From the IMG/VR virus record IMGVR_UViG_3300020179_000094, positions 1 through 34,504 of that record: a DNA stretch of 34,504 bases, one strand, 5' to 3'. Shown here piece after piece: positions 3 through 27,337 of the stretch. Source of the stretch: a virus. Made by a program: the position numbers and the translations under genes. The notes under the pieces are model-generated. The model ran no database searches. It was not told the origin of the DNA and saw only the letters and a list, made by a program, of their open reading frames with translations. The first letter of the stretch is position 1. Each line of letters opens with the position of its first letter.

Positions 3-2234
3 CCTATTGGTCTAACTTACTTTAATGAAACTAGCATTATAAATACTTTGCATGGCGGTGCAGCTATAAATCCAGATGATAATGAAAGATATCTTGTCCC
101 ATCATCTCCAAATATAATATATAAAACCTATAATTCTTCAAACGCTGAAATTGCCAGCCCAGATTACTTTGATTCAGCTACAATAAACTATTATGCGACA
201 CCATCGTATTTAACATTTGAATCAGCTAGTAATAATTTCTATCCCATTTATTTTACCAAGTATTCACCTTTCACTTCTGAAACAACACCTCAAATATTTA
301 GTGGGTATATAGATTCTTTGGATAATGTCTACGAAAGTTCAGAGGCGGCAGATAATCTATTCTTTAATTCAGATGATTTCCTAAAGAGAATTTATTTATC
401 AAAAGACTCTTTTGGATTAAATTCTGAAATAAATTATATTATAAAAGATATACAATTAATATCTGATACTCAATATATAGAGCCATATGTAAGTGATAAA
501 AATTCTTCAATTACAAATATTAATAACGCATTTAGTAATAATGAAGATATAGATATTGACGTAAGAATAGCTAGAGACATTCAGGAAGTAGTGCAAAATA
601 ATCCAGCAATTCATACTGGCTGGCTATACTTAAATCAAGATGAATACTATATATATTCCAATCCAATTACTGATTCCGCCACAGGGAGATTTTTCTCCCT
701 GCCGATTAGTCGATATCCAAGATCTGGTTCCCCAATAATAGTCAAAGTAGGCGAAGAGGAATATAGAAATATTCTTTTTGAAGACGCTGCAACTCCTGGA
801 AATATTTTATTTAGTAATACTGAAGAAATTTACGGTAACGTTAGCAACACTATTTACCTAGCTTATCAAAATGTTGAAAATATATCTGTTACAGATTCCT
901 ACACTGGTGTTGTACTATTTGATAATTTATCTACTTCCACAAATGAGTTGAATTGCTTCAGCGCTGCAACACCTTCTGTATATGGCAGAAAGTATAATGT
1001 CAGTTACGATGTCAGAAATGCCTGGTATGTTGACAAAAACGTATACAACCCTAATACCGAAATTTTTAGTTCATCAGTTTACTTTAGCTCTACCCCAAAT
1101 ACAGATCAAGTCTACTCTGTTACGTATGAGTCTTCATTGAATGATAATAGTCATTCGATAGATCTTTCATTGCTGCCCTCGTTAAATCCATTAGACGAAG
1201 GGTTTGTGTATATTTCAAAGACAGATTACAATTTTGCTAGCGCAAAAGCAGTTTTGTCTCCAGGAAATATCTCTAACTTACAAGATGATTTAATGTATTT
1301 GACCATTGTTTCTTATGATGAAAATAATAATTTTAAGCCAGGTCAAACTTTTCATGTTTATGGCGATATAGTTTCAGCTACACCAGCCTATGTTACCACT
1401 AATGATAATGGTATAGCCAAAACTATAATTCGCTATTCCTACACTGGTGAAGAGAAATATCAGTCAAGCAATGTGTTCATTTCTGGAATTGGCTCTGCAA
1501 CTCCGTACGGCAATGTCAATAGTCAGACCCAAGGATATGTAACATTTGTACCATTTGATATTAATATCGCAGATTCGGAAATACTAAGACTAAAAGCTGC
1601 GCCATCCTCATTAATAATAAATGCCGGCTCTGATCAGTCAGTGTCTATAGTCGGACAGGTTTTATGGAATAATCAGCCATGGGGTAAAATCTTACGTGTT
1701 TCCTGGAATAAAGCTAGAACCTTAAAGGACCTTTTTGCTGCGACACCAGATTATACGGCTTATACATCTTCTGATGGAAAGTTGGAAATAGCAAGTGTGG
1801 CAACAGCTCAAGATTCGGCTACTCCTGGATATTGGTTCGCAAGAGTAAATATAGCAGATGAAGACTATGCCAAGACTATTTTGCTGGCAGATCAGGAAAT
1901 TAATGCTGGCCAAAATGTTACTATATCTGGAGATGTTATTTACTGGTATGAGTCCTACGATACAGTCCAGTATGACCAGGAACTGAGTCCCCCACTGCCC
2001 AATATTTACACATCAAATAAGCAGGAAAAATCAGATATTATAGCAACACCAAACTTTGTTTATAAACACAATGATTCAAATACTATTATATATAACAGTG
2101 CAACACCCAATTGGACGCCCCCAAGATGGGTGCCTTTGAGAAAGTACGATCAGTATCAAATGGGCATTTTTGGGTCAACGCCAAACCATATAGCTGATTA
2201 TGAGCTAGTGCATCCAGATCATGAGGAACAATGA
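3..2234 (+). CDS. Tail/adsorption structural protein with Ig-like domains, 5'-truncated
   Basis: The frame is open from the left window edge with no stop, so the true start lies upstream. The TTG at 48 is only the first possible start inside the window. About 743 residues are visible. The product looks extracellular and beta-rich, with few Cys and many Ser, Thr, Asn and Tyr. The segment at nt 1330-1450 (PGQTFHVYGDI through TTNDNGIAKT) and the one at 1600-1870 (SVSIVGQVLWNNQPW, TSSDGKL, YWFARV) look like bacterial Ig-like beta sandwiches. The tripeptide Ala/Ser-Thr-Pro occurs 11 times, a striking enrichment (see findings). The stop overlaps the next start (ATGA at 2231-2234), so the two genes are probably translationally coupled. 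Position at the head of a run of large beta-rich genes before a holin suggests a tail-tip or baseplate protein. I do not recognise a specific family, and the structural role is inference from context. Confidence 0.75.
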   Translation, partial: PIGLTYFNETSIINTLHGGAAINPDDNERYLVPSSPNIIYKTYNSSNAEIASPDYFDSATINYYATPSYLTFESASNNFYPIYFTKYSPFTSETTPQIFSGYIDSLDNVYESSEAADNLFFNSDDFLKRIYLSKDSFGLNSEINYIIKDIQLISDTQYIEPYVSDKNSSITNINNAFSNNEDIDIDVRIARDIQEVVQNNPAIHTGWLYLNQDEYYIYSNPITDSATGRFFSLPISRYPRSGSPIIVKVGEEEYRNILFEDAATPGNILFSNTEEIYGNVSNTIYLAYQNVENISVTDSYTGVVLFDNLSTSTNELNCFSAATPSVYGRKYNVSYDVRNAWYVDKNVYNPNTEIFSSSVYFSSTPNTDQVYSVTYESSLNDNSHSIDLSLLPSLNPLDEGFVYISKTDYNFASAKAVLSPGNISNLQDDLMYLTIVSYDENNNFKPGQTFHVYGDIVSATPAYVTTNDNGIAKTIIRYSYTGEEKYQSSNVFISGIGSATPYGNVNSQTQGYVTFVPFDINIADSEILRLKAAPSSLIINAGSDQSVSIVGQVLWNNQPWGKILRVSWNKARTLKDLFAATPDYTAYTSSDGKLEIASVATAQDSATPGYWFARVNIADEDYAKTILLADQEINAGQNVTISGDVIYWYESYDTVQYDQELSPPLPNIYTSNKQEKSDIIATPNFVYKHNDSNTIIYNSATPNWTPPRWVPLRKYDQYQMGIFGSTPNHIADYELVHPDHEEQ

Positions 2235-5200
2235 TGGAAAAGTTTGTTAATTTAACAAATTCCAATAATGAGAAATCAGTTAAGATTGGTCAAAATGCAC
2301 CTAAAGATTCTGTTGTTTTAGGGTGGTTTAATGTTGATCCAATTTCTCCAGAAAAAAATATCACAATATTTGATCTATCTGGAACAATATTGGAAAATAG
2401 GATTTCGCTTTCTGATCAGTCGGAATTAATGTACGCAGATGAATTTGGCATATTGACGAGGTCGGATGGTTCCTCAACCATTGCCAATAATGATATTAGC
2501 GTAAGTAATATTTTCACCAATAGAATTACATCATCTCAAAAATTTATCTCTTCTGAGATAGATAGTAATAATTTTGCCCATCACTATTATGTAAGTAGAT
2601 ATTTTACTGTCGCTCAAGCTGTCTTTTCGGTTATTACTTTAAATGATTATCTGGACAGCACACGGATTTCTGATGTGGGAATTAAAATAATCGATCAATA
2701 TGGCAAAGATTATGTTGATAAAGATACAAATAAGCCAAAGTATAAAATTCTTTTAGAGCCATTTAAAACAGACTACAATCTAAATGATACAGAATTACCT
2801 TACAGAATTCTTGTATTTCTAGACTCCACTACACCTGTTGGTTTAAAAATAATCTATAATAAGTTTGAGGTAGACGAAAAAGGTAAGAGGCACAATCATC
2901 AGCTTAGATATACAGAAAATATTAATGCTGTACCAATGTTTAAGGAAGTCCCTGAAGAATCTTTTGTTATAGACCCTAATTATTTGGGTTCTAATACTTT
3001 TTCTATAAAGAAAGTAGACAATAGATTTGTTAATACATCTGGTCAATCAAATATAGTCAAAAATGGGTATCAAGCTATAGTGCCCAGCAAAGCAATAAAA
3101 GATTATAGAACTTACGAGGTATTTAATTGGAGAATTGTGGGCAGAGTAAGAAGAGCTCTCAATTTAACACAGGTAAACTTCGGAGCCAATAGAACTGTTA
3201 ATGCTTGCATACTATATTCCGGTAGTGTCTCGGGATCTAATATTAGCCCGTATGTAATATATAGGCTAGAAAATTCGCCATTTAATTTATCTAATTTTAA
3301 TTTTGAAAATCCATTAATTAATACACAAAGTAAGAATACAAAATCACATTGGTTAATAGATATAGACACAGTCACGATACAAGATCTGTCTAGGTTTGAC
3401 ATTGTTTTTTGGTCACCCGATATTTCTATTACTCCGCTTCAAGCACAAAAAATCAATGATTATATTACCAATAAATTTGGTACCTTATTTTTAGATTTAA
3501 CTAATTGCCCTGATGCTCAAAGGCTTTTTTGTGGCTCACAACTACAGATGGTAGAATCATCGTCAGCCACTACGGCTTCTATAAATTCTGACAGCTATCT
3601 TATTAATTCAAATAAAAATGGTGGCTGGGATATCAACGATAACATTTTTGAAAAAAATTATTATGGAGTATTTGGATCTAGATACACAAGAGATTTAAAC
3701 CCTAAAACTTATAAATATTTTTCAAATATTGTATCTGATAATAGTTTTGTTAAAGTTGGTCCCACTTCAGGATCTCAGAAATCTATTGGCGCTGCGATAT
3801 CATACTCTCCGGCTGTTGATAATTTGTCAAAAGGCAACGTTATAGCTACTACTTTCCCAGTAATGGAATACTGTAATAAAGTCTATTCTTTATCTGGATC
3901 CGAAATTCCAGTTAACGACAACAATGAAAACACGCATGCTGGAAATATTGAGACAGAAAATGTATTACCAGCAATAATAGAGGGACCGTTTAAGTTATTA
4001 TATAATGCGGTTTCTTATGCAATGTACTCTAAAGCTAGAGCTCAACAGTCTACTTCTACAATATCTTCTTTAACCAACCTTGTTACAGACTGGAATTCTT
4101 CCTGGGTAATGTACAGTGATGCACTAGACGATTCTGAAAAAGACGATTTTGAAGTAACACCAATATCATCTTCAACATTTGTTTATGCACGTGTTCTTAC
4201 AAAAAACTCTGCCTCTAATAACACTAGTGTATTAAATTATTTTAAAGAAAAAATGTCATTAAAGCTTCCAGCAACGCAGGTTTCGATACTATCTGAGGTG
4301 TCGGTTAATGATATAGATTTCTTTATTGAAGTAACAAATCCCGACGTTTCGATTAAAGATGCGACAAAAATAGATAATAATAATTCTTTAACAGTAAATA
4401 TACCGTCTTCTTATTATCTACATCAGATTAATCAACCGACTGGGAATACCGCACATCCAGCAAACGCAGCGTTATACGCTTATACGATAAAATATTCAAG
4501 ATCTCTTTCTCCTATTTCTGGTATGGGACCTTATACGTTATTGGAGAGACCAATTAATAGCTCGTCAAGTAGACAGTTATTAAGTGGGTTCAATCAATCT
4601 TCTGGTTTTCATTCTTATTCATTTAGATTAAAGTCTTCTTTTGTTTCTTATGAGGGAATAGATCAACCAACAGTTTTTCAAACTAAATTAAATGGTGAAT
4701 TAGTTTATGATTTAATGGGAACAATTAAGAGAACTAGAACAACTGTTGTAACGCCAGAGCCAGCAATTAGAACGTTAAGAACATCTTCTATTAAATCTGC
4801 AATTGATGACTATGATTTATTAAGAGCTAAGTCTACATCTGAAACATCTAATGTTTTTCCTTATACTGGTGATATAGATATTCATGGTCAAACTAGAATT
4901 TGGAAACAAGGTTGGGATTCCTCTGGAGGTAGTGATAAAAGACTCTTGTCGACAGAAGACGCACAGGCTGTTGGCGATTATATATCTTCGTTGTATGAAT
5001 CAAATTACTATCAGTTAAATCCCCCTGCTGCTCCTGATATTTATCAATCTCCAGATAGAATTGAGCAAAGAATAAATAGAATACCAACCCTAACTGAAGT
5101 TGTTGCCACAACAGTTCCTCAAAATAGAATACCAACCCCAACTGAAGTTGTTGCCACAGCAGTTCCTCAAATGACTTCTTCTACTAATTTTAGATCATTA

Positions 5201-5497
5201 TGGGTCCAACAATTAAATATAGGCAGAGTCCAGTTACCCGGACCAGGCTCTACCCCTTTTCCAATTGCAACATGGAGATATTGGATAAACGATGGCTCAC
5301 TTGATGGTAAAGATTACAATATCGGAACTGTTACGAAAAACAGCTTGAGTCAATATAGTTTGGAAATAGGGCGGCCAGAAGGTGATGGGGTAAAGATCTT
5401 GCTTATCTACCCACTAATGACCTTGCAACAGCTCAGACAAAAGTTGGGTTCGACAATTGTTATTCCAGCTGAATTTTTAGATAGAACAGCATCTTAA
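2231..5497 (+). CDS. Large tail/baseplate-like protein with a glutamine-amidotransferase-like segment
   Basis: This gene encodes 1088 residues from ATG 2231. A second ATG at 2234 lies at better spacing from the GAGG at 2223-2226 and may be the real start. Residues of about 320-435 (NACILYSGS, FDIVFWSPDIS, QAQKINDYI, GTLFLDLT) resemble the alternating strand-helix pattern of a class I glutamine-amidotransferase or GldG-like fold, with no catalytic Cys-His-Glu triad that I can identify, so it may be a structural version. The rest is Ser/Thr/Asn-rich and beta-like. Near the C terminus a perfectly in-frame 48-bp tandem duplication encodes two copies of a Pro-containing 16-residue linker. The final 100 residues (LWVQQLNIGRVQLPG onward) look globular. 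It sits in a tightly coupled structural operon. A tail sheath-adjacent or baseplate role is inferred from context only. Confidence 0.75.
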   Translation: MMEKFVNLTNSNNEKSVKIGQNAPKDSVVLGWFNVDPISPEKNITIFDLSGTILENRISLSDQSELMYADEFGILTRSDGSSTIANNDISVSNIFTNRITSSQKFISSEIDSNNFAHHYYVSRYFTVAQAVFSVITLNDYLDSTRISDVGIKIIDQYGKDYVDKDTNKPKYKILLEPFKTDYNLNDTELPYRILVFLDSTTPVGLKIIYNKFEVDEKGKRHNHQLRYTENINAVPMFKEVPEESFVIDPNYLGSNTFSIKKVDNRFVNTSGQSNIVKNGYQAIVPSKAIKDYRTYEVFNWRIVGRVRRALNLTQVNFGANRTVNACILYSGSVSGSNISPYVIYRLENSPFNLSNFNFENPLINTQSKNTKSHWLIDIDTVTIQDLSRFDIVFWSPDISITPLQAQKINDYITNKFGTLFLDLTNCPDAQRLFCGSQLQMVESSSATTASINSDSYLINSNKNGGWDINDNIFEKNYYGVFGSRYTRDLNPKTYKYFSNIVSDNSFVKVGPTSGSQKSIGAAISYSPAVDNLSKGNVIATTFPVMEYCNKVYSLSGSEIPVNDNNENTHAGNIETENVLPAIIEGPFKLLYNAVSYAMYSKARAQQSTSTISSLTNLVTDWNSSWVMYSDALDDSEKDDFEVTPISSSTFVYARVLTKNSASNNTSVLNYFKEKMSLKLPATQVSILSEVSVNDIDFFIEVTNPDVSIKDATKIDNNNSLTVNIPSSYYLHQINQPTGNTAHPANAALYAYTIKYSRSLSPISGMGPYTLLERPINSSSSRQLLSGFNQSSGFHSYSFRLKSSFVSYEGIDQPTVFQTKLNGELVYDLMGTIKRTRTTVVTPEPAIRTLRTSSIKSAIDDYDLLRAKSTSETSNVFPYTGDIDIHGQTRIWKQGWDSSGGSDKRLLSTEDAQAVGDYISSLYESNYYQLNPPAAPDIYQSPDRIEQRINRIPTLTEVVATTVPQNRIPTPTEVVATAVPQMTSSTNFRSLWVQQLNIGRVQLPGPGSTPFPIATWRYWINDGSLDGKDYNIGTVTKNSLSQYSLEIGRPEGDGVKILLIYPLMTLQQLRQKLGSTIVIPAEFLDRTAS
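5075..5170 (+). repeat. In-frame 48-bp tandem duplication (two copies)
   Basis: The copies are 5075-5122 and 5123-5170. They are exactly contiguous, identical in length and differ at two bases by my reading (Leu/Pro at codon 6, Thr/Ala at codon 13). Each encodes a unit that begins NRIPT, contains TEVVAT and ends VPQ. Near-identity of synonymous positions points to a recent duplication, and the units lie in a probable linker between the body and the C-terminal domain of the tail protein. Confidence 0.95.
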
Positions 5498-8254: not shown

Positions 8255-10849
8255 ATGATACACGCATTACCGGAAACAATTAGCTTATATTCTTCCGCCT
8301 CTAGGGCGACTGTTTCGTCTCTCATAAGAGATATGAGGCTTGAAAAAACAGATTTAAATTTTTTAGTAACAAAAATGTCAAATATGACAGTAGATCTAAA
8401 TTATACGGGAGCTAAAGTTGCGTCTTTTTCCCTTCTAACAAAAGAAGCAATGGTGGATGCGTTCAGAAACGCCTACCTAAGAATGCAAAATTTATTTAAT
8501 GCAGCCAATGCTACCGGTATAGCTTTAAATTCTATTGTTAGCGTTTTTGATTCTGAAATACAAAAAGTAGAAGAAGATTTAGATAAGCTACAAGTGTTTA
8601 TAGATAACTATGAATTTATTTCTGGTAAAGATGATTTGTTTAACGCAAACTATATAGAGAAATTTGATAGCTTCCTTAATGACTATAGGGCAGATGGAGT
8701 TCAGTTTGCAATTCCAGATAGGGATGGCATACCTTTTTCGGAAACAAATAATGCCTTCATAGATCCTGTCAGCGGTGCTTTAAAAATTGGTAAGGGACAA
8801 GATGTAAAAAATATCATTAGAAATATAAAGTCTATAAAAATTGCTACTAATTATAATAATTATGTGACAACAAATTCTAATTTTGAAAATTTATTTAATG
8901 ATAATTTTTCTGATTCATGGTCAGTGACAATAAAGTCTCCAGCTATTTTATCTGCACAGCTAAAAGATTATATAAAATATTTTAACTATGATTATTCTAC
9001 TGTTAGTGGAGCAATCGCAGCTGTTGAAATAGTCTTACAAAGACCTATTAATATAGATACAATTAGATTTCAGTCTAATCAATCAACTAATTTTAAGCTA
9101 TTACAGGCTGTTGTATACCACAATTCTCCTATAGATGCGAATAATATTACGCCGTCAGAAAACTATACCATTCTACTAAACAGGCCAGCATTGCTAAATA
9201 GAGTTTTTGATTTAAGATTTAATAAGAAATCAGTTAATAAGATTATTCTGATATTTAATCAGCAAGATTACATTAAGAATAATAGGCCACCAATTAATTC
9301 TGAGCTAAACTCTAAAGTTTTGGATTCATTTGTGAAAGCTGTAATAGATGAGCGCAAAAAAAGTTTTAGTAGATTTCAAGATATTATTTATTGGTTTTTC
9401 AAAAGAAAAAGTACGGTAAAAGGAATATCTAAAAATAAAAAAACAGATATAGACTACTACACATACAGGTTTCCGCAGGAATTTGATAGCTACATAAATA
9501 ATTTAGATGAGCAAATTAAAGAATTTAATAATCTAATTATTGAAGATAAAAACGTATTTACTAATACCCCTGTATTCGTTAATGCAATTAATTCTATGTT
9601 GAATACTTTTTCTGGAAAATACAAAATATTTGATTCTGATAAATATATTGAAGGCATAACAGCAGGATCTTCTTTATTTGCGTCCGGATTCATCATGGGT
9701 TCGAGCACTAACGTCAGGTCCCAATCTGATCAACAATATAACACTGGAATTCTAGCTACTCCAGTAGCTTCGTTAAACTCTCAATTATCTGTGCTAGAAT
9801 CCAATTCTAGCTATGAATACAGTTTTTCTCTTAGATCAATAGAGTTCATAGAAACATTAAATCAAGATACTAATAAAGCTGTTTTTGTTAGCAAAAAAAT
9901 TCCTGTTAATGGGCAAATTATTGCAGCTAAAGTAAAGCCATATTTCTTTAACAATAATGCCGGTGTTTCCAATGTAAATAGAGACATACTAGCTCCGGCA
10001 TCATACGAGATATCTATATCCAATAAGCCACTGCCATTAAGTGAATCTGACTGGATACCAATATCAACTTATGGCAATAAAATTGTTCAATCTGAAATTT
10101 TGTTTACAAATAATGTCACTAGAAAAGCTAAATTAAGATTTAAACCTAAAAATGATTCAATTATTGTATATAAAGACGGAGTTTTGTTGCCCAGAATTTC
10201 TACTAACTATAGTTATTCGATTGATGAAAATACCATTTCTATTTCGCAAAGTCAATTTAATGTAAATAGCAGATTTATAGTTTCTTATGATTTAGATTTC
10301 GCATTCACTGCGCCTGATGAGGTTGATTTTATAAAAAGAAATGTAATTCTTCAATCTTTAAAAAACTATTCTTCAGACGATGGTTCGGGTGAAACTTTTT
10401 CTTCGACTGATTTCAATGCATCAATCAGATTAAGTTATTCTCCTTATGTGGATAGGGATAGTTATGCTAGAATAATTTATAATAAATCAACAGGAACAAA
10501 TTTTATTAGCAACAATGCTGGGTACAACCCTGTAAAAATTATTCTTTCAGATGGAACAGTGGCAATTAATCTAACTAATTACTCTCTTTCCGTAGAAAAG
10601 GTTTCATTTTATTCTACGACTGAAACACTATTTATCCAAAATGGTAAAAATGTCGTTTTCAACAGGCCGATTAATCAGCCATTTACAGTTTACTATCAAT
10701 ATATACCTAATGATTTGCGATTTAGATTAGTGATAAGAAAAAACATTATTGACTCTTCTGATCCAATATCCGTCGATAGCGTTATTGTCAAAATGAAAAC
10801 CATTAATAATGATCCATATTATGAGAAGCTAAATTCTTTAACATTGTAA
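8255..10849 (+). CDS. Structural protein with helical N terminus and beta-sandwich modules
   Basis: This 864-residue product starts at the ATG immediately after the previous stop, so translation is probably coupled. The first 115 residues are helical and charged, with likely coiled-coil character (EIQKVEEDLDKLQ). They are followed by a beta region (GAIAAVEIVLQRPINIDTI, FKLLQAVVYHNSP) resembling the discoidin-like jelly rolls common in phage baseplate and fibre proteins. Around residues 590-610 the sequence SESDWIPISTYG matches a motif that recurs in three downstream genes, and KNDSIIVYKDGVLLP follows it. No enzymatic motif is seen. The gene is part of the same tail/baseplate cassette, but its exact function is unknown. 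Confidence 0.75.
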   Translation: MIHALPETISLYSSASRATVSSLIRDMRLEKTDLNFLVTKMSNMTVDLNYTGAKVASFSLLTKEAMVDAFRNAYLRMQNLFNAANATGIALNSIVSVFDSEIQKVEEDLDKLQVFIDNYEFISGKDDLFNANYIEKFDSFLNDYRADGVQFAIPDRDGIPFSETNNAFIDPVSGALKIGKGQDVKNIIRNIKSIKIATNYNNYVTTNSNFENLFNDNFSDSWSVTIKSPAILSAQLKDYIKYFNYDYSTVSGAIAAVEIVLQRPINIDTIRFQSNQSTNFKLLQAVVYHNSPIDANNITPSENYTILLNRPALLNRVFDLRFNKKSVNKIILIFNQQDYIKNNRPPINSELNSKVLDSFVKAVIDERKKSFSRFQDIIYWFFKRKSTVKGISKNKKTDIDYYTYRFPQEFDSYINNLDEQIKEFNNLIIEDKNVFTNTPVFVNAINSMLNTFSGKYKIFDSDKYIEGITAGSSLFASGFIMGSSTNVRSQSDQQYNTGILATPVASLNSQLSVLESNSSYEYSFSLRSIEFIETLNQDTNKAVFVSKKIPVNGQIIAAKVKPYFFNNNAGVSNVNRDILAPASYEISISNKPLPLSESDWIPISTYGNKIVQSEILFTNNVTRKAKLRFKPKNDSIIVYKDGVLLPRISTNYSYSIDENTISISQSQFNVNSRFIVSYDLDFAFTAPDEVDFIKRNVILQSLKNYSSDDGSGETFSSTDFNASIRLSYSPYVDRDSYARIIYNKSTGTNFISNNAGYNPVKIILSDGTVAINLTNYSLSVEKVSFYSTTETLFIQNGKNVVFNRPINQPFTVYYQYIPNDLRFRLVIRKNIIDSSDPISVDSVIVKMKTINNDPYYEKLNSLTL

Positions 10850-10859
10850 AGAGAACACT

Positions 10860-13016
10860 ATGACACAACTATCAGCAAACACTATGCCGTATCAGCAAAT
10901 GCTACATAAGGTGGCTCAGTTAATTACCGCAATAAACTCTGCGTCATTAATTACAAAAGATGAAATAGCAGAACAATATTTAAAAATATTAAATGAAATT
11001 AAGAATCAAATAGGAGCCCCTTTGGCATCTTATTCGCCCTTCATAAAAGGTGAGCCACCAAGATCTGAAAAGTTTAATAAATTTTTTACAGAGTATGCAC
11101 AAGACGTATCTATTTTGTCAAAGCAAATAGATTACCTCAACGCCAAGACCATTAATATATTTAATCTTTTTTCTAAAGAAGTTGAAGGAGAAAAAAGGTA
11201 CTCGGAAAGAATAGTTTCCAAGTGTAAAATTTTGCAAATGTATTCTCGTAGTCCATCTGATGATCTAATTTATGTTGGTGATTCATTTGAAAATGATGAT
11301 TTAATTGATTATACAAAAATAACAAAAGGCTCAAATCCACTTATTAAGGGCGGGGCTGCGTCGTTAGCGATAGAATCCTCTAAACGATGGACCATTGATT
11401 CAATAGAAGTTTTATCTGGAAATGGTTTTATTGGCAATAGTCATCAAATTATAAAGTCTAATAATGATGAAAATACATCTCAATATAAATATGTTTTTGA
11501 GAATAATAAAACATTAAATAACCTAAGAAGCATTAATGACAATAATCCTCTTACATATTTTGAATATGAAAGTTTAAATGTAGATAAGTCAATAGCAAAA
11601 CCACCATTTACTATTGCGCCTCAGGAGAATGAATTTAAGTTTCTTAAAACAGAAATGAATAGTTCTAATTCTAATGAGTCCAATGTAGTAGATTGGTCTT
11701 CGCATCCAATAGCTGATCCCTTAACTTTGAAACTAAAACTAACTTCTAATTCCGGAAGAATTGCAAATAGTATTGATATAACTCCATTTTTTGGTTCCTC
11801 TAAATATATAGAAGTTACAGAAGTTGTAGTTTTTGCTAAAAATGGTTCTTCAGAAAATGTTTTAAAGGAAAATATTTTTATTGGCTCATCATTAATCCCA
11901 TTGAATATTGAAATTGCGCAAAACTATTTTTACAACAAAGCTACAGTAAGATTTCCTGAAAGAGAAGTTTCTAAAATAGAAATATCTTTTAGGCAGACGG
12001 CTTATTCAAACGTAGAAATAAAACACGTTTATTGGAAACCAAGCTCAATAAACGCTAATAATCCTTTTGTCAATTTATCAAGATTCAACCCAGATGCCTT
12101 GAGCAGGGATATATACGAATCAATTAAATACAATAAATATCAATTAATACCAACACTATCTAATCCAACTAAATATAAAACTACTACACAAAATGTAACA
12201 GATATAAATGTTAGCTTAAAAAAGAAGCCAACATCCCTAACGGCTTATTTCATAGCTGCCTCATTCTTTAGCGATTCAGCTACTCCAACTAGTTCTACGG
12301 TTTATTTTCATAGATGGACAACAACTGGAGAAGAGGCTCAATTTGTTTCTGAGCCAGTTAAAGATGAAGATAGTTACATAACAAAAAACTATGATACCGC
12401 AGCAGCTGCTCAAGAAGATTTGAATGATCTTTTGGATTTATATTTAGGTGCCACTCCATTTTCGCATCCAGAGTTAGGGGTAATGCAAGATATTTCGATT
12501 GTGCAACAGTCATTTGTACCTGTGCAAAAAGAAATTTCTCATAGAGTTATTCTTCAGCAGGCAGAAGAATTATATAATGCTAAAAGATGGGCGATAGGAA
12601 TTAGAGATATAGATGTGTATAGGGAGAAATACAAGGATGAAATGCAGATAATTTCTTTTCCATTTAAGTTTGATTATCCTATTGAATCTGTAATGCTTGA
12701 CGTACAAGCTACTATAAATCAGGTTCATTCTACAAAAATAAATATTGAAACATACATATCTGCAGATCAAGGATCCAATTGGATAGAGATTTCTCCGGTG
12801 CAATTAGACTTTAATGGTGTTCCTGAAATAGTGTTCTTTAATCAATCTATACTTAATGAATATAGATTATCTGGCGCATCATATTTATCCTTTCCAACTA
12901 TTCCAAAAGAAGTTAAAGAAATTGTTGTTAAAATAGTTGCGAACAAAAAAGGTACATATAATTTTACGCCTAATATATATTCGTACCAATTAATAGCTAA
13001 GGTAAAAAGATCATGA
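10860..13016 (+). CDS. Structural protein, helical N terminus plus beta modules
   Basis: The protein has 718 residues and begins 10 bp after the preceding stop, with a GAGA purine stretch ahead of the ATG. The first 115 residues are helical (VAQLITAINSASL, EYAQDVSILSKQIDYLNAK). The middle is beta-rich and resembles a carbohydrate-binding or discoidin-like sandwich, without conserved catalytic residues. The C-terminal 120 residues include YISADQGSNWIEISP, related to modules in neighbouring genes, and end in a strand-rich IYSYQLIAKVKRS tail. It contains two ATP tripeptides (SDSATPTS and LGATPFS) like those concentrated in the first gene. The stop overlaps the next start as ATGA at 13013-13016. 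A baseplate or tail-fibre role is inferred from context. Confidence 0.75.
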   Translation: MTQLSANTMPYQQMLHKVAQLITAINSASLITKDEIAEQYLKILNEIKNQIGAPLASYSPFIKGEPPRSEKFNKFFTEYAQDVSILSKQIDYLNAKTINIFNLFSKEVEGEKRYSERIVSKCKILQMYSRSPSDDLIYVGDSFENDDLIDYTKITKGSNPLIKGGAASLAIESSKRWTIDSIEVLSGNGFIGNSHQIIKSNNDENTSQYKYVFENNKTLNNLRSINDNNPLTYFEYESLNVDKSIAKPPFTIAPQENEFKFLKTEMNSSNSNESNVVDWSSHPIADPLTLKLKLTSNSGRIANSIDITPFFGSSKYIEVTEVVVFAKNGSSENVLKENIFIGSSLIPLNIEIAQNYFYNKATVRFPEREVSKIEISFRQTAYSNVEIKHVYWKPSSINANNPFVNLSRFNPDALSRDIYESIKYNKYQLIPTLSNPTKYKTTTQNVTDINVSLKKKPTSLTAYFIAASFFSDSATPTSSTVYFHRWTTTGEEAQFVSEPVKDEDSYITKNYDTAAAAQEDLNDLLDLYLGATPFSHPELGVMQDISIVQQSFVPVQKEISHRVILQQAEELYNAKRWAIGIRDIDVYREKYKDEMQIISFPFKFDYPIESVMLDVQATINQVHSTKINIETYISADQGSNWIEISPVQLDFNGVPEIVFFNQSILNEYRLSGASYLSFPTIPKEVKEIVVKIVANKKGTYNFTPNIYSYQLIAKVKRS

Positions 13017-15158: not shown

Positions 15159-15554
15159 ATGGCTATTAGCTATAGAAATTCCAATAAAATAAATAGAATT
15201 ATTGAACCACTTTATCAGATTGATAGAGCAAAATTTAAATCTCCTAGAAATAGTTTAATGGAAAATCTAGAGAGTAATTTATTAAAGATAGATTTTTCTA
15301 GAATATTAAATCATTTAAATGAAGTTGATAATTCTATTTTAGATAAGTTAACATATTTTATTGGGGATATAACAGATTATACAGAGCAAGCAAAAATAGA
15401 CGATGGCATTTCCTACGATTTTGCTTCCTTGCAAAGGTATATAGATGAGGCAAGTCCTTCATTGGAAACGCTGACAATTGACACTACTAATAAGTTAAGT
15501 GGAAAATTGTCTAGATTAATCAATAAAGTTTCTAGATTAGAAAATGGTGGATGA
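15159..15554 (+). CDS. Small helical protein of the tail cassette
   Basis: The gene encodes 131 residues and is preceded by GAAGGAT with 5-6 bp spacing. The predicted product is almost entirely alpha-helical, rich in Leu, Ile, Asp and Lys, with heptad-like stretches (LNEVDNSILDKLTYFIGDI, TNKLSGKLSRLINKVSRLE) but no transmembrane segment. It may be a small adaptor, chaperone or trimerisation partner of the large proteins on either side. No family is recognised. Its 3' end overlaps the next gene. Confidence 0.7.
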   Translation: MAISYRNSNKINRIIEPLYQIDRAKFKSPRNSLMENLESNLLKIDFSRILNHLNEVDNSILDKLTYFIGDITDYTEQAKIDDGISYDFASLQRYIDEASPSLETLTIDTTNKLSGKLSRLINKVSRLENGG

Positions 15555-16809
15555 TATGACTTATGTATTAAAAACTAAAAAAAGAGACTATAAATACAAT
15601 GGCCCCGTGGATAGCTCGGACTATAATTCGAGGATACAGGAAAATTATGAAGATTTAGTTTACCTTTATAATAGGGCAAATATCATAGACGCTAAGTTGT
15701 CTAGTGCTTTTGAAAGAGTTTTAAAAGATCACATATTTTTAGCTAATGCAATACAGGATCTAAGCGATAGGGTTTCTGCCTTAGAGTCAAATTCTAATAC
15801 ATTGTCAATATATTCTTTTTCACAGTTGGATTATAATAATTTTGTTGGAACAAGCTTTTCAATTGCCGGAACGGAGTTATTAAGCTTTGACCCCTCATAT
15901 AACGCAATAACTCTACCAAAAGTGTCTAGTGGATCATTCTCAAAGCTAAAGTTTGGTCAGGCTGGTGTTGGACAGGTAGTCCCAGATTATTTTAAAACCA
16001 GAATAGACATTTCCTATGCAGGTGTGGATACTCCTGGTGCGGTAATTGACAGTACCCCAATATATAATTGCATCTTAGATGCTGCTGATAAAGTTTGGAG
16101 AAGAACAGTAGTTTCTAATACAAATCCCACAACTGGTGCACAGCTTATGTTATATGTGGCAATACCCAACGACGCTGTTGGGATATTGAAATCTAATGTT
16201 ATTAAGCTAAACCCATTTCCGGCTTTTGGCTGTGAGATATATTCGATTGAATATACGACAGTCGCTAATCCCTCATTGACTCCAGCAGATACTTGGATAC
16301 CTTTAAATAAAAATAGTTTTTACGATTCAGTCGCCTCAGCCATAGGAAAGGTAGCGCCTGGTGGGTGGTCATCTCTTGGTTCTGATTCTATTAAAAATTC
16401 TGGACCACTATGTTTCCATTTTCCGGAAACAAATATAACAGCCATAAGAATTAAGATGAATCAAAAAAATTATTTAACAGAAACAGGAAAGTATATTTAC
16501 ACATATGGTCTTTCTGATTTGGACGTTAAATATGAGAAATATTTACAAACTGGTAAAATAATTATAAAGTATTCCGCCCCCGTCGGCACCGTTGTACAAG
16601 AAGTGACAAATGTCTCGCCCAAGATATATAATGTAGCGGAAAGTCAGCTTGATGAAGCTTTTAGCTACAGAATTATATACGACGATGCTGGGACATATAG
16701 CTTAATCAATCCCGGTGCCTCTAATCATGTATGGATAGAAGTCACCCTGAATCAGTTAGATGACAAAACTGCGCCAGTTCTTTCCGATTTAATTATTGAA
16801 TATATCTAA
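15544..16809 (+). CDS. Structural protein, short paralogue of the preceding tail genes
   Basis: The longest frame starts at ATG 15544 (421 residues). ATG 15556 gives MTYVLKTKKRDYKY and has GGTGG at 15546-15550 ahead of it, so it is arguably the better start. The N terminus is helical with a short coiled coil (LSDRVSALESN). It is followed by a beta region with PADTWIPLNKNSFYD, another copy of the tryptophan motif found in three upstream genes. The last residues (TAPVLSDLIIEYI) match the C-terminal strand motif of the others. It is probably a shorter member of the same baseplate or fibre family and the last gene of the contiguous block; 46 bp separate it from the next ORF. Confidence 0.75.
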   Translation: MVDDMTYVLKTKKRDYKYNGPVDSSDYNSRIQENYEDLVYLYNRANIIDAKLSSAFERVLKDHIFLANAIQDLSDRVSALESNSNTLSIYSFSQLDYNNFVGTSFSIAGTELLSFDPSYNAITLPKVSSGSFSKLKFGQAGVGQVVPDYFKTRIDISYAGVDTPGAVIDSTPIYNCILDAADKVWRRTVVSNTNPTTGAQLMLYVAIPNDAVGILKSNVIKLNPFPAFGCEIYSIEYTTVANPSLTPADTWIPLNKNSFYDSVASAIGKVAPGGWSSLGSDSIKNSGPLCFHFPETNITAIRIKMNQKNYLTETGKYIYTYGLSDLDVKYEKYLQTGKIIIKYSAPVGTVVQEVTNVSPKIYNVAESQLDEAFSYRIIYDDAGTYSLINPGASNHVWIEVTLNQLDDKTAPVLSDLIIEYI

Positions 16810-18802: not shown

Positions 18803-20860
18803 ATGTCTGAGGGTTTATCTTTATTCACTTTTCGTTTAAGTGATGATTTTGTGGAGACATACAAAAAGGTTAAGGCGCCGTTCGGCTATGCAGATGCTGC
18901 AGGTAATTCTGTTGGAGAAATTACATTTCTAAGAACATATTCTAGAATCAAAGAAAATGGCACTAAAGAAACTTGGGTTGATGTATGTGAACGAGTAATT
19001 AACGGAATGTATTCTCTGCAAAAAGAACACTGCAAAAAAAATAGACTACCATGGAATGATATCAAGGCTCAAGCGTCTGCCAAAGAAGCTTTTGATAGAT
19101 TGTTTAATTTAAAGTGGACACCTCCTGGTCGAGGGCTTTGGGTTATGGGCACCCCTCTGGTGATGGTGCAAAGAAACTCTGCCGCTTTGCAGAACTGCGC
19201 TTTTGTTAGCACCTCAGAAATGACAAAAGCAAATCCCGCTAAGCCATTCGGCTTTCTTATGGAGGCATCAATGCTGGGTGTGGGCGTAGGATTTGACGAC
19301 AAAGGCGCTGATAAAGATTTTAATATCTATGAGCCTACCAGACCAATGGTCATAGATACCATCGAGGATTCTCGTGAAGGTTGGGTTAACTCTGTTGTTG
19401 CTCTAATCAATTCGTATTTAAAGCCAGATCAAAACCCATTAGAATTTGATTACTCCTTAATTAGGCCCTTGGGTACTGCAATTAAAACATTTGGCGGCAC
19501 TGCAGCAGGCGCAGATCCACTTATTAGGCTCCACAATCATGTTAGAAAGATGTTTGAAGGTAGAGCTGGGCAAAAATTAACTAGAGTTGACATAGCTGAT
19601 ATTGGTAACACTATAGGTGTTTGTGTTGTATCTGGAAATGTTCGTAGATCGGCAGAGCTATTGATTGGGCGCTTGGATGACCAAAACTTTTTAAATCTTA
19701 AGAATTCTGAAAAGTTTCCGGAAAGAAACTCCTATTTAGCAGAAGCTCCTGGTTGGGGATGGATGTCCAATAACTCTGTAGAAACATCTGTTGGAACAGA
19801 TTTGTCAAGTATCGTTGATGGAATATCTAGAAACGGTGAGCCAGGTGTAATTTGGATGGACATGTCACGAAAATATGGAAGATTAGCGGATCCACCAAAT
19901 AATAAAGATCATCGTGTAGCAGGATATAATCCATGCGCAGAGCAATCCCTTGAGTCTTATGAATGCTGCACACTAGTTGAAACATACTTGAATAGGCATG
20001 ATTCTTTGGAGGATTTTAAGAGAACTTTGAAGTTTGCGTACCTATATGCTAAAACGGTAACGCTTCTTCCAACTCATTGGGAAGAAACAAATGCTATCAT
20101 GCAAAGAAACCGTAGAATCGGTACATCAGTTTCCGGTGTTGCAAACTTTGCCGATAGACTAGGCTTGCCCGTATTAAGAGAGTGGTTGGATAATGGTTAT
20201 CAAACTGTTCAAAGATATGACAATATTTATTCAGAATGGTTAGGTATACGTGAGTCAATCAAAACCACTACCATAAAACCCTCTGGTACAGTTTCTATTT
20301 TGGCCGGAGAATCTCCAGGAGTACATTGGACCCCTGGTGGTAAATATTTTCTGAGAGCGATTAGATTCGCAAACGACGATGCAATGTTACCGCTATTTAA
20401 AATGGCTAATTATATAGTAGAGCCAGCTTCTGAATCACCAGATACTACATCTGTTGTTTTTTTCCCAATAAAGTCAGATTCTCGTAGATCAGAAAAAGAT
20501 GTAACAATCTTTGAAAAAATGTCCCTAGCTGCAACAGCTCAGAGATATTGGTCTGACAATTCTGTTTCAGTTACAATATCATTTGATGCAAAAGAAGAAA
20601 AACATCATGTTGGTACAGTTCTTCACATGTACGATGGCCAGCTGAAGACTGTGTCATTTTTGCCCCAGGGAAATTTTGTTTATCCACAAATGCCTTATAC
20701 GCAGATAGATGAAAATGATTATGATAACTGCTCAAAAAACCTATTACCGATAGATTTAGATGGAATATACGCTGGGCTTGCTGCTGATGCTATAGGGGAG
20801 CAGTATTGCACAACTGATTCATGCGAAATTAGGTTTATAAAAGATAATTTAAAGGTGTGA
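18803..20860 (+). CDS. nrdJ: Adenosylcobalamin-dependent (class II) ribonucleotide reductase
   Basis: The protein has 685 residues, behind GGAG seven to eight bases upstream. It reduces ribonucleotides to deoxyribonucleotides using a cobalamin-generated thiyl radical, which makes dNTP supply independent of oxygen and of a second subunit. It resembles the monomeric triphosphate reductase of the Lactobacillus leichmannii type. C132 sits in LQNCAFVST and corresponds to C119 there. YNPCAEQ carries the radical C378 and E380, and C389 lies exactly 11 residues later, matching the C408/C419 pair. KPSGTVSILAGESPGVHWTP is the phosphate/substrate loop. The C terminus has a C-x4-C pair (C669, C674) for thioredoxin-type re-reduction. 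All catalytic residues I can check are present, so it is probably active. Slightly shorter than the approximately 740-residue reference, it neighbours thyX, forming a nucleotide module. Confidence 0.93.
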   Translation: MSEGLSLFTFRLSDDFVETYKKVKAPFGYADAAGNSVGEITFLRTYSRIKENGTKETWVDVCERVINGMYSLQKEHCKKNRLPWNDIKAQASAKEAFDRLFNLKWTPPGRGLWVMGTPLVMVQRNSAALQNCAFVSTSEMTKANPAKPFGFLMEASMLGVGVGFDDKGADKDFNIYEPTRPMVIDTIEDSREGWVNSVVALINSYLKPDQNPLEFDYSLIRPLGTAIKTFGGTAAGADPLIRLHNHVRKMFEGRAGQKLTRVDIADIGNTIGVCVVSGNVRRSAELLIGRLDDQNFLNLKNSEKFPERNSYLAEAPGWGWMSNNSVETSVGTDLSSIVDGISRNGEPGVIWMDMSRKYGRLADPPNNKDHRVAGYNPCAEQSLESYECCTLVETYLNRHDSLEDFKRTLKFAYLYAKTVTLLPTHWEETNAIMQRNRRIGTSVSGVANFADRLGLPVLREWLDNGYQTVQRYDNIYSEWLGIRESIKTTTIKPSGTVSILAGESPGVHWTPGGKYFLRAIRFANDDAMLPLFKMANYIVEPASESPDTTSVVFFPIKSDSRRSEKDVTIFEKMSLAATAQRYWSDNSVSVTISFDAKEEKHHVGTVLHMYDGQLKTVSFLPQGNFVYPQMPYTQIDENDYDNCSKNLLPIDLDGIYAGLAADAIGEQYCTTDSCEIRFIKDNLKV

Positions 20861-22570: not shown

Positions 22571-22820
22571 AAAAGCAGCATTCTTGTTAGCCATGTTTGC
22601 TATAGGATCAGTTATTGGTAGATTAAGTTCTCAAAAGAGACTAATACAAAAAAACAATCAACCAAATATTGCGCAGTACCTTAATCGTTTAACTGAATTT
22701 TACGGTTCAAAGACCATAGGATATGCTGAAGACGAGTTTCTTCATTTAGTTGATTTTGGTATGAGTCCACAGAATGCATTCACTGCAATTACCGATACAG
22801 AAAGAGCAATCAATGATTGA
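22557..22820 (+). CDS. Small membrane-anchored hypothetical protein
   Basis: The 87-residue product begins KNGEKAAFLLAMFAIGSVIG, a Lys-headed hydrophobic helix that reads as an N-terminal membrane anchor, followed by a soluble helical tail of about 60 residues. The frame extends upstream to 22443, but that part lies in the previous gene. ATG 22557 gives the most natural N terminus, although the ribosome binding site is weak and 22548 or 22551 are possible. It overlaps the next gene start by eight bases. Function unknown. Confidence 0.55.
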   Translation: MKNGEKAAFLLAMFAIGSVIGRLSSQKRLIQKNNQPNIAQYLNRLTEFYGSKTIGYAEDEFLHLVDFGMSPQNAFTAITDTERAIND

Positions 22821-23604
22821 TTTATGTATAGTTAATTATAATACTAGGCATCTGCTAAATAGATTTTTAGATTGTCTTCATAACGACTTGCATCTGGTAG
22901 ACAAAAAGTGGAATCTTTATATAGCAGATAATAATTCTTCTGATGACACGCAAAAGTGGATAAAATCAAATGATAAAAGATATCATATTGATGATGTTAA
23001 ATTTAATGATAACGTAGGTTATTCGGCTGCATGTAATCAGCTAGCTGCTATAGGTAGTTCTGAAATTATATGTCTTCTAAATGCTGATGTATGGATGGAC
23101 AGTTATTCTGTTAGCGCGGCTATGGATTCTTTTTCGCAAAATACGTTTATAGATATTCTTGGACCAAAGCAAAGAGACGAAAATGGTTTCATAACTCACG
23201 CTGGCATTGTTGGGTCCAATGTTGATCCAAAGCATAGGGGCTGGAAAGAGCATGACCCTAATGATATTTTATATAGAGATATGGTTGAATGCGTTACTGT
23301 TTCTGGTTCAGCTTACTTTATTAGGCGAAGCGTTTGGGATTCGCTAACAAATGATGAGCAATATAGAAAGATGTATCCATACGCTACAGGAGCATTTCTT
23401 CCTACGCCACATTATTATGAAGAAACTTGGTGCTCTTATTTTGCTAGACATAAAGGCTATAAGGTTTTTTATGATGGATCTATTTCTATAGGACATAGCT
23501 GGCATAAGTCATCGAGTGTTGGAAGTGAGGCAGATGGTAAGTTTCCAATCAGCAGAGATATATTTAGAAAAGCTTGTGATTTCATGGGAATAGAAAGAGA
23601 TTAA
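22813..23604 (+). CDS. Family 2 glycosyltransferase
   Basis: This gene encodes 263 residues from ATG 22813, overlapping the previous stop. Upstream in-frame codons (to 22774) lie in the preceding gene. The N-terminal nucleotide-sugar-binding half reads IDLCIVNYNT, LYIADNNSSDDT, NVGYSAACNQL, then CLLNADVWM, the GT-A fold of GT2 enzymes such as WbbL rhamnosyltransferase. The metal-binding DxD position is NADV with no second Asp, as is common in this branch. GSAYFIRRSVWDSL and the HYYEETWCSYFARHKGYKVFY region supply the acceptor/base side. It would transfer an activated sugar to a protein, lipid or DNA acceptor that cannot be read from sequence. Two further glycosyltransferase candidates lie downstream, so virion or DNA glycosylation is a reasonable inference. 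Confidence 0.82.
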   Translation: MIDLCIVNYNTRHLLNRFLDCLHNDLHLVDKKWNLYIADNNSSDDTQKWIKSNDKRYHIDDVKFNDNVGYSAACNQLAAIGSSEIICLLNADVWMDSYSVSAAMDSFSQNTFIDILGPKQRDENGFITHAGIVGSNVDPKHRGWKEHDPNDILYRDMVECVTVSGSAYFIRRSVWDSLTNDEQYRKMYPYATGAFLPTPHYYEETWCSYFARHKGYKVFYDGSISIGHSWHKSSSVGSEADGKFPISRDIFRKACDFMGIERD

Positions 23605-23605
23605 A

Positions 23606-24499
23606 TTGCCCATAAAAAGCTATGGCTCTTTGTTTGCAGGGGCTGGTGGGATAGATATAGGCTTAGACTTTGCAGGTCTTCAGTGCACTTTTCAGGTTGA
23701 AATTGATCAAAATTGTCAACAAGTGTTATCATATCACTGGCCCAATGTTCCAAAGTATCGTGATATAAAAGATGTTAACGGATATGATCTCCCCGCAGTA
23801 GATTTGATAGTTTTTGGTTCACCTTGTCAAGATTTATCAAGTGCCGGTAATAAAATTGGATTAAATGCAGAGCAATCTGTTTTATTTTATGAGGCGATTA
23901 GAATAATTAAAGAGATGAGAGAAAAGACAAATGGAGAATATCCAAAAATTTCAATCTGGGAAAATGTTACGGGCGCCTTATCATCCAACGCAGGTGCCGA
24001 CTTTGGGCAAGTCCTCTACGAAATGGATGAAGCAGGGGCGCATTTCTCGGAATGGGCAGTCCTGGATGCACAATACTTTGGAGTGCCCCAGCGAAGAAAA
24101 AGAATATACCTTATATCTGTCTTCGATCATGCAACAGCACAAAGATGTCCCGAAAAAATATTACCTGTCAGCAAAAGCGGCTCGGGGAATTCTCAGAAGA
24201 ATGTTAGCAAACAAGAGTATTTTTCCGAAAAGATTGCTAGCTGCCTTAGAAGCGGTGGCAAAGGAGGAAAGCCCTCAAGTAGAGGAGAAAATTTAATTGT
24301 AGTAGAAGACAATAACAGTCTATGCGTTAGAGAATTTACACCTTTAGAATGCGAAAGATTGATGGGTTGGCCAGATAATCATACTCTATATAGAGCTGAT
24401 GGTAAATATAATTCTGATAATGTTAGATATAAAATGTGTGGCAATGGGGCTGTTTCCCCTGTAATATATTGGATAGTTAATCAAATTAAGGAGATATAA
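23606..24499 (+). CDS. dcm: DNA cytosine-5 methyltransferase
   Basis: The protein has 297 residues, starting at TTG 23606, with an AGAAAGAGA purine stretch before it. It methylates carbon 5 of cytosine in a specific DNA sequence using S-adenosylmethionine. The ordered motifs are clear: motif I SLFAGAGGIDIG (8-19), motif IV GSPCQDLSSAG with catalytic C74, motif VI ENV, motif VIII QRRKRIYLI, and motifs IX/X with GWPDNHTLYR and CGNGAVSPVIYWI at the C terminus. The target-recognition region is short, so the recognition sequence cannot be inferred. A solitary phage methyltransferase without a partner restriction enzyme usually protects phage DNA from host restriction. It lies between a glycosyltransferase and a nuclease gene in the same tightly spaced operon. 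Confidence 0.93.
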   Translation: MPIKSYGSLFAGAGGIDIGLDFAGLQCTFQVEIDQNCQQVLSYHWPNVPKYRDIKDVNGYDLPAVDLIVFGSPCQDLSSAGNKIGLNAEQSVLFYEAIRIIKEMREKTNGEYPKISIWENVTGALSSNAGADFGQVLYEMDEAGAHFSEWAVLDAQYFGVPQRRKRIYLISVFDHATAQRCPEKILPVSKSGSGNSQKNVSKQEYFSEKIASCLRSGGKGGKPSSRGENLIVVEDNNSLCVREFTPLECERLMGWPDNHTLYRADGKYNSDNVRYKMCGNGAVSPVIYWIVNQIKEI

Positions 24500-24898: not shown

Positions 24899-24899
24899 T

Positions 24900-25937: not shown

Positions 25938-25976
25938 GCAGATTGAGGGGGATTGTCCCCCTCAATCTGCTTTTAA
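25938..25976 (+). terminator. Strong intrinsic (Rho-independent) terminator
   Basis: A 15-bp perfect stem (25938-25952 with 25956-25970) closed by a 3-base TTG loop is followed directly by TTTT. The GGGGG/CCCCC core makes it the most stable hairpin I see in the window. It lies 23 bp after the stop of the GC-rich small gene and should end transcription there, so the following genes would need read-through or their own promoter. Confidence 0.92.
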
Positions 25977-25990
25977 AGATTGGATATTTT

Positions 25991-26683
25991 ATGATTATAG
26001 CACAGATGATAGGTAGAAACGAGTCTGGTAGATTTCTTGAAAATGTCTTAAAAAGATTATCTTCACAAGTTGATAAAATTGTTTTCACAGATGACTGCTC
26101 AGATGATAATACTATGGAGATAGCTGCAAAATATGCAGAAGTCTTCCGAAGTCCTGAGCCTTTATTCAAGGTACATGAAGGTAAGTTAAGATCTTTTGCA
26201 TGGAGCAACTTAGAGCATTTTGCACATCTTGGTGATTGGATAGTGGCCATAGATTGCGACGAAATGCTACACCACACTCATAATTTATCAATAAGAAATG
26301 TTTTAGCTCAGTCGCCAAATGATGTTGTTAATGTTAGATTTTATCATATGTGGAACGATTCTCAATATCGAGTTGATAAACTGTGGGCACCTAACAATAG
26401 CTCAAGAATATTTAGATTTGCTGCTAATGGCGGATTTGCAGATAAGCAGCTTGCTTGCGGTTCGGAGCCTACATATGTAGTGGATTGGATTCGCCAAAGA
26501 AATTGGTGGCTTAACTCCGGTTTCATGATGCAGCACTTGGGCTATATTAGTGATTTAGATAAGCAAGATAAATATTCAAGATACTCAGAGATAGATGGTG
26601 GTAAGTTTCATAATATAAATCATATCAATTCAATATTAGACAAAAATCCAGTTTTAATTGACTGGGGTACATTTGGTATATGA
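25991..26683 (+). CDS. Glycosyltransferase family 2-like protein
   Basis: The gene encodes 230 residues from ATG 25991; the longer frame (from 25943) would run through the terminator stem, so it is not used. The N-terminal pattern IIAQMIGRNESGRFLENVL, then KIVFTDDCSDDNTMEIA and DWIVAIDCDEML, is that of GT-A enzymes of family 2, with DCDE at the metal-binding DxD position. The remainder contains many Trp and aromatic residues (RIFRFAANGG, VDWIRQRNWWLNSGFMM) and a His-rich end. The ribosome binding site is weak (GATTGG). The acceptor is unknown. It pairs with the next gene, 12 bp away, and the earlier glycosyltransferase 3 kb upstream. Confidence 0.78.
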   Translation: MIIAQMIGRNESGRFLENVLKRLSSQVDKIVFTDDCSDDNTMEIAAKYAEVFRSPEPLFKVHEGKLRSFAWSNLEHFAHLGDWIVAIDCDEMLHHTHNLSIRNVLAQSPNDVVNVRFYHMWNDSQYRVDKLWAPNNSSRIFRFAANGGFADKQLACGSEPTYVVDWIRQRNWWLNSGFMMQHLGYISDLDKQDKYSRYSEIDGGKFHNINHINSILDKNPVLIDWGTFGI

Positions 26684-26695
26684 TAAGGAGAAAAA

Positions 26696-27337
26696 ATGAC
26701 TTGCCTTAATCCCGCTGAATCAATTAAAAATATTACACTAGCACTTGAAAAGAATAAAAAATTTTCCTATATTAATGTCACAAAGTCGGCAATTATTGCT
26801 TTAAGTAAAAACTCTGATAATTGTTTTCCTTCACATTTTGCAAAAAATGTAGTAGCTTCATTGAAAAACAATGATCCGATGATGATGAAAGCTATATCTC
26901 ATTCTCTAGTTTCTGACATAGAAGATGGCAAGCACTATAAAATAGGCTTACACAAAAATGCAACCTATTATTATTCTAATATTTTTGAATATTATTACAT
27001 GAACCATAAAGATGTATATAGTTCAACTGTTAATTATTATTTAAAGAATTCTTCAAGCGTTGTTATCACTTTTCATGACAAAAAGCTAATACAAAAGCAT
27101 TTTGGAAACAATGCTCATATAATTAATGTTGCGTATACTAATTATTATGAAAAATTAGACAATATATATGCTCAACTAACGGAATTCCAGGGTGGAGTAG
27201 ACTATTGCATAATGGATTGCGGTGTGCTTGGGTTGGCCTTAGCTTCTAAAATATGGGACAACTTAGATATGTCAGTATTAGATTTTGGGAAAACATTAAG
27301 TTTGAGCAAGGTCTCTTCAGCAGCAACTATTACATGA
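26696..27337 (+). CDS. Putative GT-D-type glycosyltransferase
   Basis: This 213-residue product has a strong AAGGAG six bases before the ATG. The C-terminal part, GVDYCIMDCGVLGLALASKI followed by MSVLDFGKTLSLSK, resembles the GT-D (DUF1792-like) fold in which a strand ending in acidic residues precedes a Gly-rich helix and a final D-x-G strand. The N-terminal half (FAKNVVASLKNNDPMMMKAI, then HYKIGLHKNATYYYSN) is consistent with that fold but not diagnostic. It would act on an acceptor already carrying sugar, together with the GT2 gene upstream. The family is a moderate-confidence call. Confidence 0.55.
   Translation: MTCLNPAESIKNITLALEKNKKFSYINVTKSAIIALSKNSDNCFPSHFAKNVVASLKNNDPMMMKAISHSLVSDIEDGKHYKIGLHKNATYYYSNIFEYYYMNHKDVYSSTVNYYLKNSSSVVITFHDKKLIQKHFGNNAHIINVAYTNYYEKLDNIYAQLTEFQGGVDYCIMDCGVLGLALASKIWDNLDMSVLDFGKTLSLSKVSSAATIT

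Follow-up and report, generated by a model that had tools for sequence, protein, structure and literature searches.

A recurrent [AS]TP tripeptide under protein-level selection in a probable phage baseplate protein, a candidate O-glycan acceptor motif

The stretch of DNA analysed here (the window: 34,504 nucleotides, the whole of positions 1 to 34,504 of virus record IMGVR_UViG_3300020179_000094) opens within a gene whose product carries the tripeptide Ala/Ser-Thr-Pro ([AS]TP) many times over, which raises the question of what maintains it. An earlier note had located 11 copies in ORF 3-2234, and all of its coordinates are correct (nine ATP and two STP), and [SA][AS]TP occurs at eight of the 11 sites. 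The two extra copies that it had reported in the 10860-13016 product are present at nt 12279 and nt 12450, and copies are indeed rare in the other structural genes of the window, with one each in 2231-5497, 8255-10849, and 15544-16809 and none in the rest. The features are listed below, with their distribution in the homologue alignment.

3..2234, + strand: incomplete ORF that runs off the window; last 743 aa of a virion protein of 1696 aa, probably part of the baseplate; 11 [AS]TP
195..203, + strand: ATP motif 1, INYYATPSYL; TP in 16/16 aligned homologues, [AS]TP in 14
789..797, + strand: ATP motif 2, FEDAATPGN; in 16/16 homologues
966..974, + strand: ATP motif 3, CFSAATPSV; in 16/16 homologues
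1089..1097, + strand: STP motif 4, YFSSTPN
1377..1385, + strand: ATP motif 5, IVSATPAYV; missing from L056, L057, L058, L063, L064, and L067
1497..1505, + strand: ATP motif 6, GIGSATPYG; missing from the L057/L063/L067 group
1740..1748, + strand: ATP motif 7, LFAATPDY; lineage-restricted
1818..1826, + strand: ATP motif 8, QDSATPGYW; lineage-restricted
2043..2051, + strand: ATP motif 9, IIATPNFVY; in 16/16 homologues
2100..2108, + strand: ATP motif 10, YNSATPNW
2175..2183, + strand: STP motif 11, FGSTPN
12279..12287, + strand: ATP copy in the 10860-13016 virion protein
12450..12458, + strand: ATP copy in the 10860-13016 virion protein

Amino acid composition predicts 0.50 [AS]TP in ORF 3-2234, and 200,000 shuffles of the ORF gave a mean of 0.505 and a maximum of 5; the Poisson tail for 11 copies is 8e-12. 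ATP is the most frequent of all tripeptides in the ORF (9 vs. 0.18 expected). Chance or compositional bias could draw on the protein being rich in S, T, and P, but the null already includes composition, permuted motifs stay near background, and the homologues described below refute such an origin, so that we give it practically no weight. The copies are not a DNA repeat either, because 10 different nonamers encode the 11 sites and the average identity of the flanking nucleotides is only 30%. This origin is ruled out, as the earlier note had argued, although its premise that codons differ at every site does not quite hold: the nonamer GCGACACCA is used twice, at nt 195 and nt 1740.

The intact gene is found in G001 (IMG/VR contig 3300020183_000007), where it encodes 1696 aa with 19 [AS]TP, and the part present in the window is 100% identical. 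The next highest count among the 204 ORFs called on G001 is three. The N-terminal half of the protein matches phrog_21059 ("virion structural protein"), and in G001 the immediately preceding gene matches phrog_6 ("baseplate wedge subunit", E=1e-36). Distant relatives occur in the structural regions of Bacillus phage KLEB27-3, where the gene directly follows a Baseplate_J gene, and of Moorella phage MTATph1. The phage also has a sheath gene. Because its gene follows the baseplate-wedge gene, we place the protein by gene order in the baseplate, most likely as a large component of it in a phage with a contractile tail. Neither the protein nor its profiles matched any sequence in Pfam or the PDB, a genome-collection search found no homologue, and the A1 scan recovered only close relatives. 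Among phages with named hosts, the DnaE of this phage is closest to the enzymes of Streptomyces phages, a hint of an actinobacterial host.

The large protein has a mid-protein cassette site (residues about 553-720; L008, 2142-7229). In G001, it holds three near-identical FG-GAP-like repeats (tblastn match to an "FG-GAP repeat" gene), and in some relatives an unrelated domain of ~170 aa, in others only a short linker (L065/L067/L069 and L061-L064 were compared); L063 and L064 have additional large inserts farther along the protein. The domains at this site are possibly exchangeable receptor-binding domains. In L005/L066 (3300008110_000048), the gene is split at this point into ORFs of 525 aa and 994 aa, and close relatives have one ORF; this could be a real split or an assembly error.

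Homologues of the large protein were collected by IMG/VR scans with growing alignments, from 100% down to 30% identity. Every full-length homologue across this range has 14 to 24 [AS]TP (mean 18.6), and permuted or related tripeptides average 0.3 to 5.0 copies (0.7 to 5.0 for the permuted ones). Over 20 sequences, the motif Thr falls into 69 alignment columns, a count that is approximate because distant alignments are imperfect; about eight of these columns have the motif in at least 15 of the 20 sequences, and 24 have it in a single sequence. The 16-sequence alignment (at least 46% identity) has 38 motif columns, some universal and most variable. Copy number is thus much steadier than position. 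The earlier note had asked whether copies were inserted relative to homologues, and this is true of a few, which came with short insertions (NSTPNSS in L064 and DSATPAVQ in the L057/L063/L067 group); most new copies arose by substitution, in columns where ASP, SSP, TTP, AEP, or LEP alternate with ATP. The long acquired domains of L059 and L064 (859 aa) have zero copies.

For a test of conservation, sites were defined in one sequence and scored in six other lineages. The motif Thr was kept at 0.61-0.84, roughly double the rate of other Thr (0.22-0.42), and the motif Pro at 0.80-0.89 (other Pro, 0.47-0.76), and the positions that flank the motif were conserved at the protein background (0.38-0.52). 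Ala precedes TP nine to ten times more often than expected, and G, N, D, and L are depleted there; after TP, N/S/D/G are enriched at +1 and Y/W at +2. The motif is no artefact, and selection on it at the protein level, a claim of the earlier note, is strongly supported by the near-constant copy number, the positional turnover, and the Thr-specific conservation. The retention of 14 to 24 copies across proteins of only 30% identity is evolutionarily unusual and calls for an explanation whether or not a sugar is involved.

One such explanation is structural: a favoured [SAG]-[AS]-T-P-[NSDG]-[YWF] loop would lead into a beta-strand in this beta-rich family, with the Thr hydroxyl and the Pro fixing the turn and the Thr unmodified. 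The preferences at +1 and +2 and the conserved contexts of the universal sites fit this reading. So do AlphaFold2 models of low confidence (built from 15-16 sequences; pTM 0.28 and 0.31), in which coil directly flanking a strand holds most motifs and a short strand-rich stretch holds one, with none inside a long helix or a strand core; the last three motifs of the window lie in the unmodelled C-terminus. Coil placement does not separate the rivals, because Pro favours coil anyway, and a fold search of the PDB was uninformative, its hits all being generic ones to Ig-like, adhesin, and complement structures with low TM-scores. A generic turn, however, would not call for so specific a preference for Ala at -1 with depletion of G, N, D, and L, nor for copies that arise at non-homologous places while their number stays near constant, and the other large virion proteins of the window have only zero to two copies. 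We consider an unmodified structural turn rather unlikely, although it deserves to be kept in view.

Beyond the large protein, the motif is in excess elsewhere in the virion. The other structural proteins of G001 have 15 ATP (4.05 expected), with STP, TTP, GTP, NTP, and LTP near expectation, and the remaining, non-virion proteins have no excess (5 vs. 6.8). Four further lineages pooled have 44 ATP in structural proteins (17.6 expected) and one in assigned non-structural proteins (2.8 expected), and the other virion proteins of G021 have 16 (4.7 expected); these lineage counts are not independent, because homologous sites recur among lineages. In G018, the other virion proteins are at expectation (4 vs. 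4.0). In most lineages, the candidate acceptor ATP is thus in excess in virion proteins alone, and in G018 in the large protein alone. STP is enriched in the large protein and not in other virion proteins, which show no consistent excess of STP, TTP, or GTP. In the Moorella and Bacillus relatives, there are 0-1 copies per protein and no clear ATP excess in the structural regions.

In the sheath and the adjoining 531-aa protein, ATP occurs in loops that vary in flanks and length between lineages; in the sheath of G014, for example, a copy lies within the short insert NSATPSN. These loops could not be mapped on a solved sheath, since the sheath profile has no match in the PDB. In all five lineages, the last residues of a 287-aa tail protein are ATPN and one further amino acid, a feature that also speaks against the structural turn. 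Placement in these three proteins appears to be the behaviour of a linear motif. Such behaviour would also be expected if [AS]TP were a multivalent docking peptide for a virion protein or an assembly chaperone, with number and not position being what matters: turnover at near-constant number, variable flanks, loop positions, and presence in several tail proteins all agree with docking. A specific need for Thr over Ser is, however, more typical of enzymes than of docking, and no candidate partner was identified. Docking is in our judgement rather improbable.

An enzyme that could act on the motif is suggested by the three putative glycosyltransferases that had been noted in the window, which turn out to be two family-2 (GT2) genes and one GT-D-like gene.

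22774..23604, + strand: GT2a, predicted soluble family-2 glycosyltransferase, 276 aa (Pfam PF00535, E=4e-12)
25943..26683, + strand: GT2b, predicted soluble family-2 glycosyltransferase, likely true start at codon 17; GmaR is the nearest solved structure
26696..27337, + strand: GT-D-fold-like glycosyltransferase (PF22882, E=5e-9), adjoining GT2b in 18 searched contigs

All three are predicted by hydropathy to be soluble, with no hydrophobic stretch of membrane-spanning strength. Catalytic acidic motifs are conserved across five lineages, LLN[AS]DVW in GT2a and the invariant IDCDE in GT2b; the GT-D-like enzyme also matches NCBIfam GT-D_rel (E=8e-7), below the curated cut-off. The three genes are present in 18/18 group contigs searched and in 0/2 motif-poor relatives (Moorella and Bacillus, in which PF00535 was not found), a co-occurrence that is effectively one event because it sets one clade against two outgroups. 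The best PDB match of GT2b is GmaR (phmmer E 1.2e-7, profile E 5.5e-8), the N-terminal GT domain of which transfers GlcNAc to flagellin (PMC9638930). This similarity is a lead on the type of substrate and no proof of it, because family 2 is broad. GT2a relatives are encoded by 321 viral stretches in IMG/VR, and of 12 contigs tested, 11 also encode the large baseplate protein, which suggests an uncultured phage group of considerable size. Mangrove phage GX15bay, with relatives of GT2a and GT2b at 42% and 30% identity, was considered as an independent replicate and rejected: its ATP excess is weak (7 vs. 3.0), and there is none in its 2098-aa tail protein.

The cassette adjoins replication genes and not tail genes, and a C5-cytosine methyltransferase gene (23606-24499) lies between its members, beside GT2a. 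Alternatively, the enzymes may modify DNA rather than protein, as the neighbouring methyltransferase gene would suit, the co-occurrence with the motif being a phylogenetic coincidence; this overlaps with the turn and docking alternatives. Protection of DNA is a role often proposed for phage glycosyltransferases (PMC10202952), and G003 has a sub-cut-off TET/JBP match. Such a match is lacking in G001, G002, and G005-G008, however, and GT2b is nearest to a protein glycosyltransferase. DNA hypermodification by way of the C5-methyltransferase is judged less likely because comparison with four other lineages, all with an intact cassette, turned up no counterpart of that gene, and DNA as the substrate would leave the motif unexplained. 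We regard DNA modification as possible but on the doubtful side.

Two further observations concern other genes of the window. Small genes resembling an SNase and a pyrimidine-dimer glycosylase (window 24500-25304) are 84-92% identical among lineages, and tail proteins are 40-60% identical, so these genes are seemingly either unusually slow-evolving or recently exchanged. The B12-dependent ribonucleotide reductase (window 18803-20860) is 86% identical to that of G014 and 32-33% identical to those in the same place in G009, G010, and G013, which suggests gene replacement.

We give about an even chance to the reading that [AS]TP is an O-glycan acceptor motif on the tail, served by the three-enzyme cassette of the phage. 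Of the explanations in the earlier note, this one fits best, given the cassette in all 18 contigs, the similarity to GmaR, and the ATP excess in virion proteins; we infer the glycosylation of Thr itself, its assignment to these enzymes, their order, the surface exposure of the sites, and any benefit. The accompanying argument from host mannosyltransferases is weak. In actinobacteria, Pmt modifies proteins as they are secreted, and baseplates assemble in the cytosol, so a soluble enzyme encoded by the phage is the better candidate. A-T-P would serve on the virion as a short linear acceptor motif, with S-T-P tolerated in the large protein, and the phage glycosyltransferases would put an O-linked sugar on its Thr in surface loops, with GT2b the likely initiator and GT2a and the GT-D-like enzyme likely extenders. 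The large baseplate protein would bear the sugar most densely, and the sheath and other tail proteins more sparsely. Selection would hold each baseplate protein at about 18 sites even as single sites are gained and lost, and a benefit might lie in shielding, stability, or adsorption.

Several findings count against O-glycosylation. GX15bay has related enzymes and little motif excess, G018 has the full cassette and an ATP excess in the large protein only, and the enrichment of STP does not extend from the large protein to the other virion proteins. The 859 aa of inserts in L059 and L064 are motif-free, and the surroundings of some universal sites are conserved and lead into strands, which a structural role predicts. 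The similarity of GT2b to GmaR is modest, and the cassette sits beside replication genes. The argument is weakest where it joins motif to cassette, since the two, as far as the genomes compared here indicate, co-vary across one clade boundary only.

A broader proposal, which we make tentatively and hold at somewhat under even chances, is that a large group of uncultured freshwater phages has its own sequon-like O-glycosylation, with three core enzymes, the acceptor [A>S]-T-P, and turnover on the tail at near-constant number, like the glycan-shield sites of eukaryotic viruses. If true, an acceptor motif for phage virion glycosylation could be read from sequence, together with candidate enzymes and several virion substrates; the role of glycans in adsorption, stability, and escape would become testable in abundant uncultured freshwater phages; and the group would provide a compact Thr-Pro-directed bacterial O-glycosyltransferase.

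Known systems resemble this one in part. In the glycosylation of streptococcal serine-rich-repeat proteins, soluble GT2 and GT-D enzymes act together on a protein, and the presence of both types here is a likeness to be taken only as a lead, as there are no serine-rich repeats and the GT-D similarity is below the NCBIfam cut-off. GT2b aligns with GmaR of Listeria (PDB 22ao) over ~200 residues, including a shared acidic DxD region, but at low identity; it is a stand-alone protein of 230-246 aa without TPR or antirepressor parts, and we do not file it as a GmaR because it is a single domain without the substrate-binding TPR domain. The Pmt glycoproteome of S. coelicolor has frequent Ala, Pro, and Gly near modified sites without a consensus, and its glycoproteins are mostly membrane or secreted proteins (PMC6593405). 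This frequency of Ala, Pro, and Gly is the likeness to actinobacterial O-mannosylation; no Pmt-type phage gene was seen here. In mycobacteriophages, the virion glycosylation sites of Freeman et al. 2023 (cited in PMC12619734) are reportedly C-terminal, in capsid and tail-tube subunits. The present candidate sites differ in being a tripeptide scattered along the chain, with its highest density in a baseplate protein; the likeness would lie in glycans on phage structural proteins, and here too one tail protein carries the motif at its C-terminus, in a conserved ATPNx.
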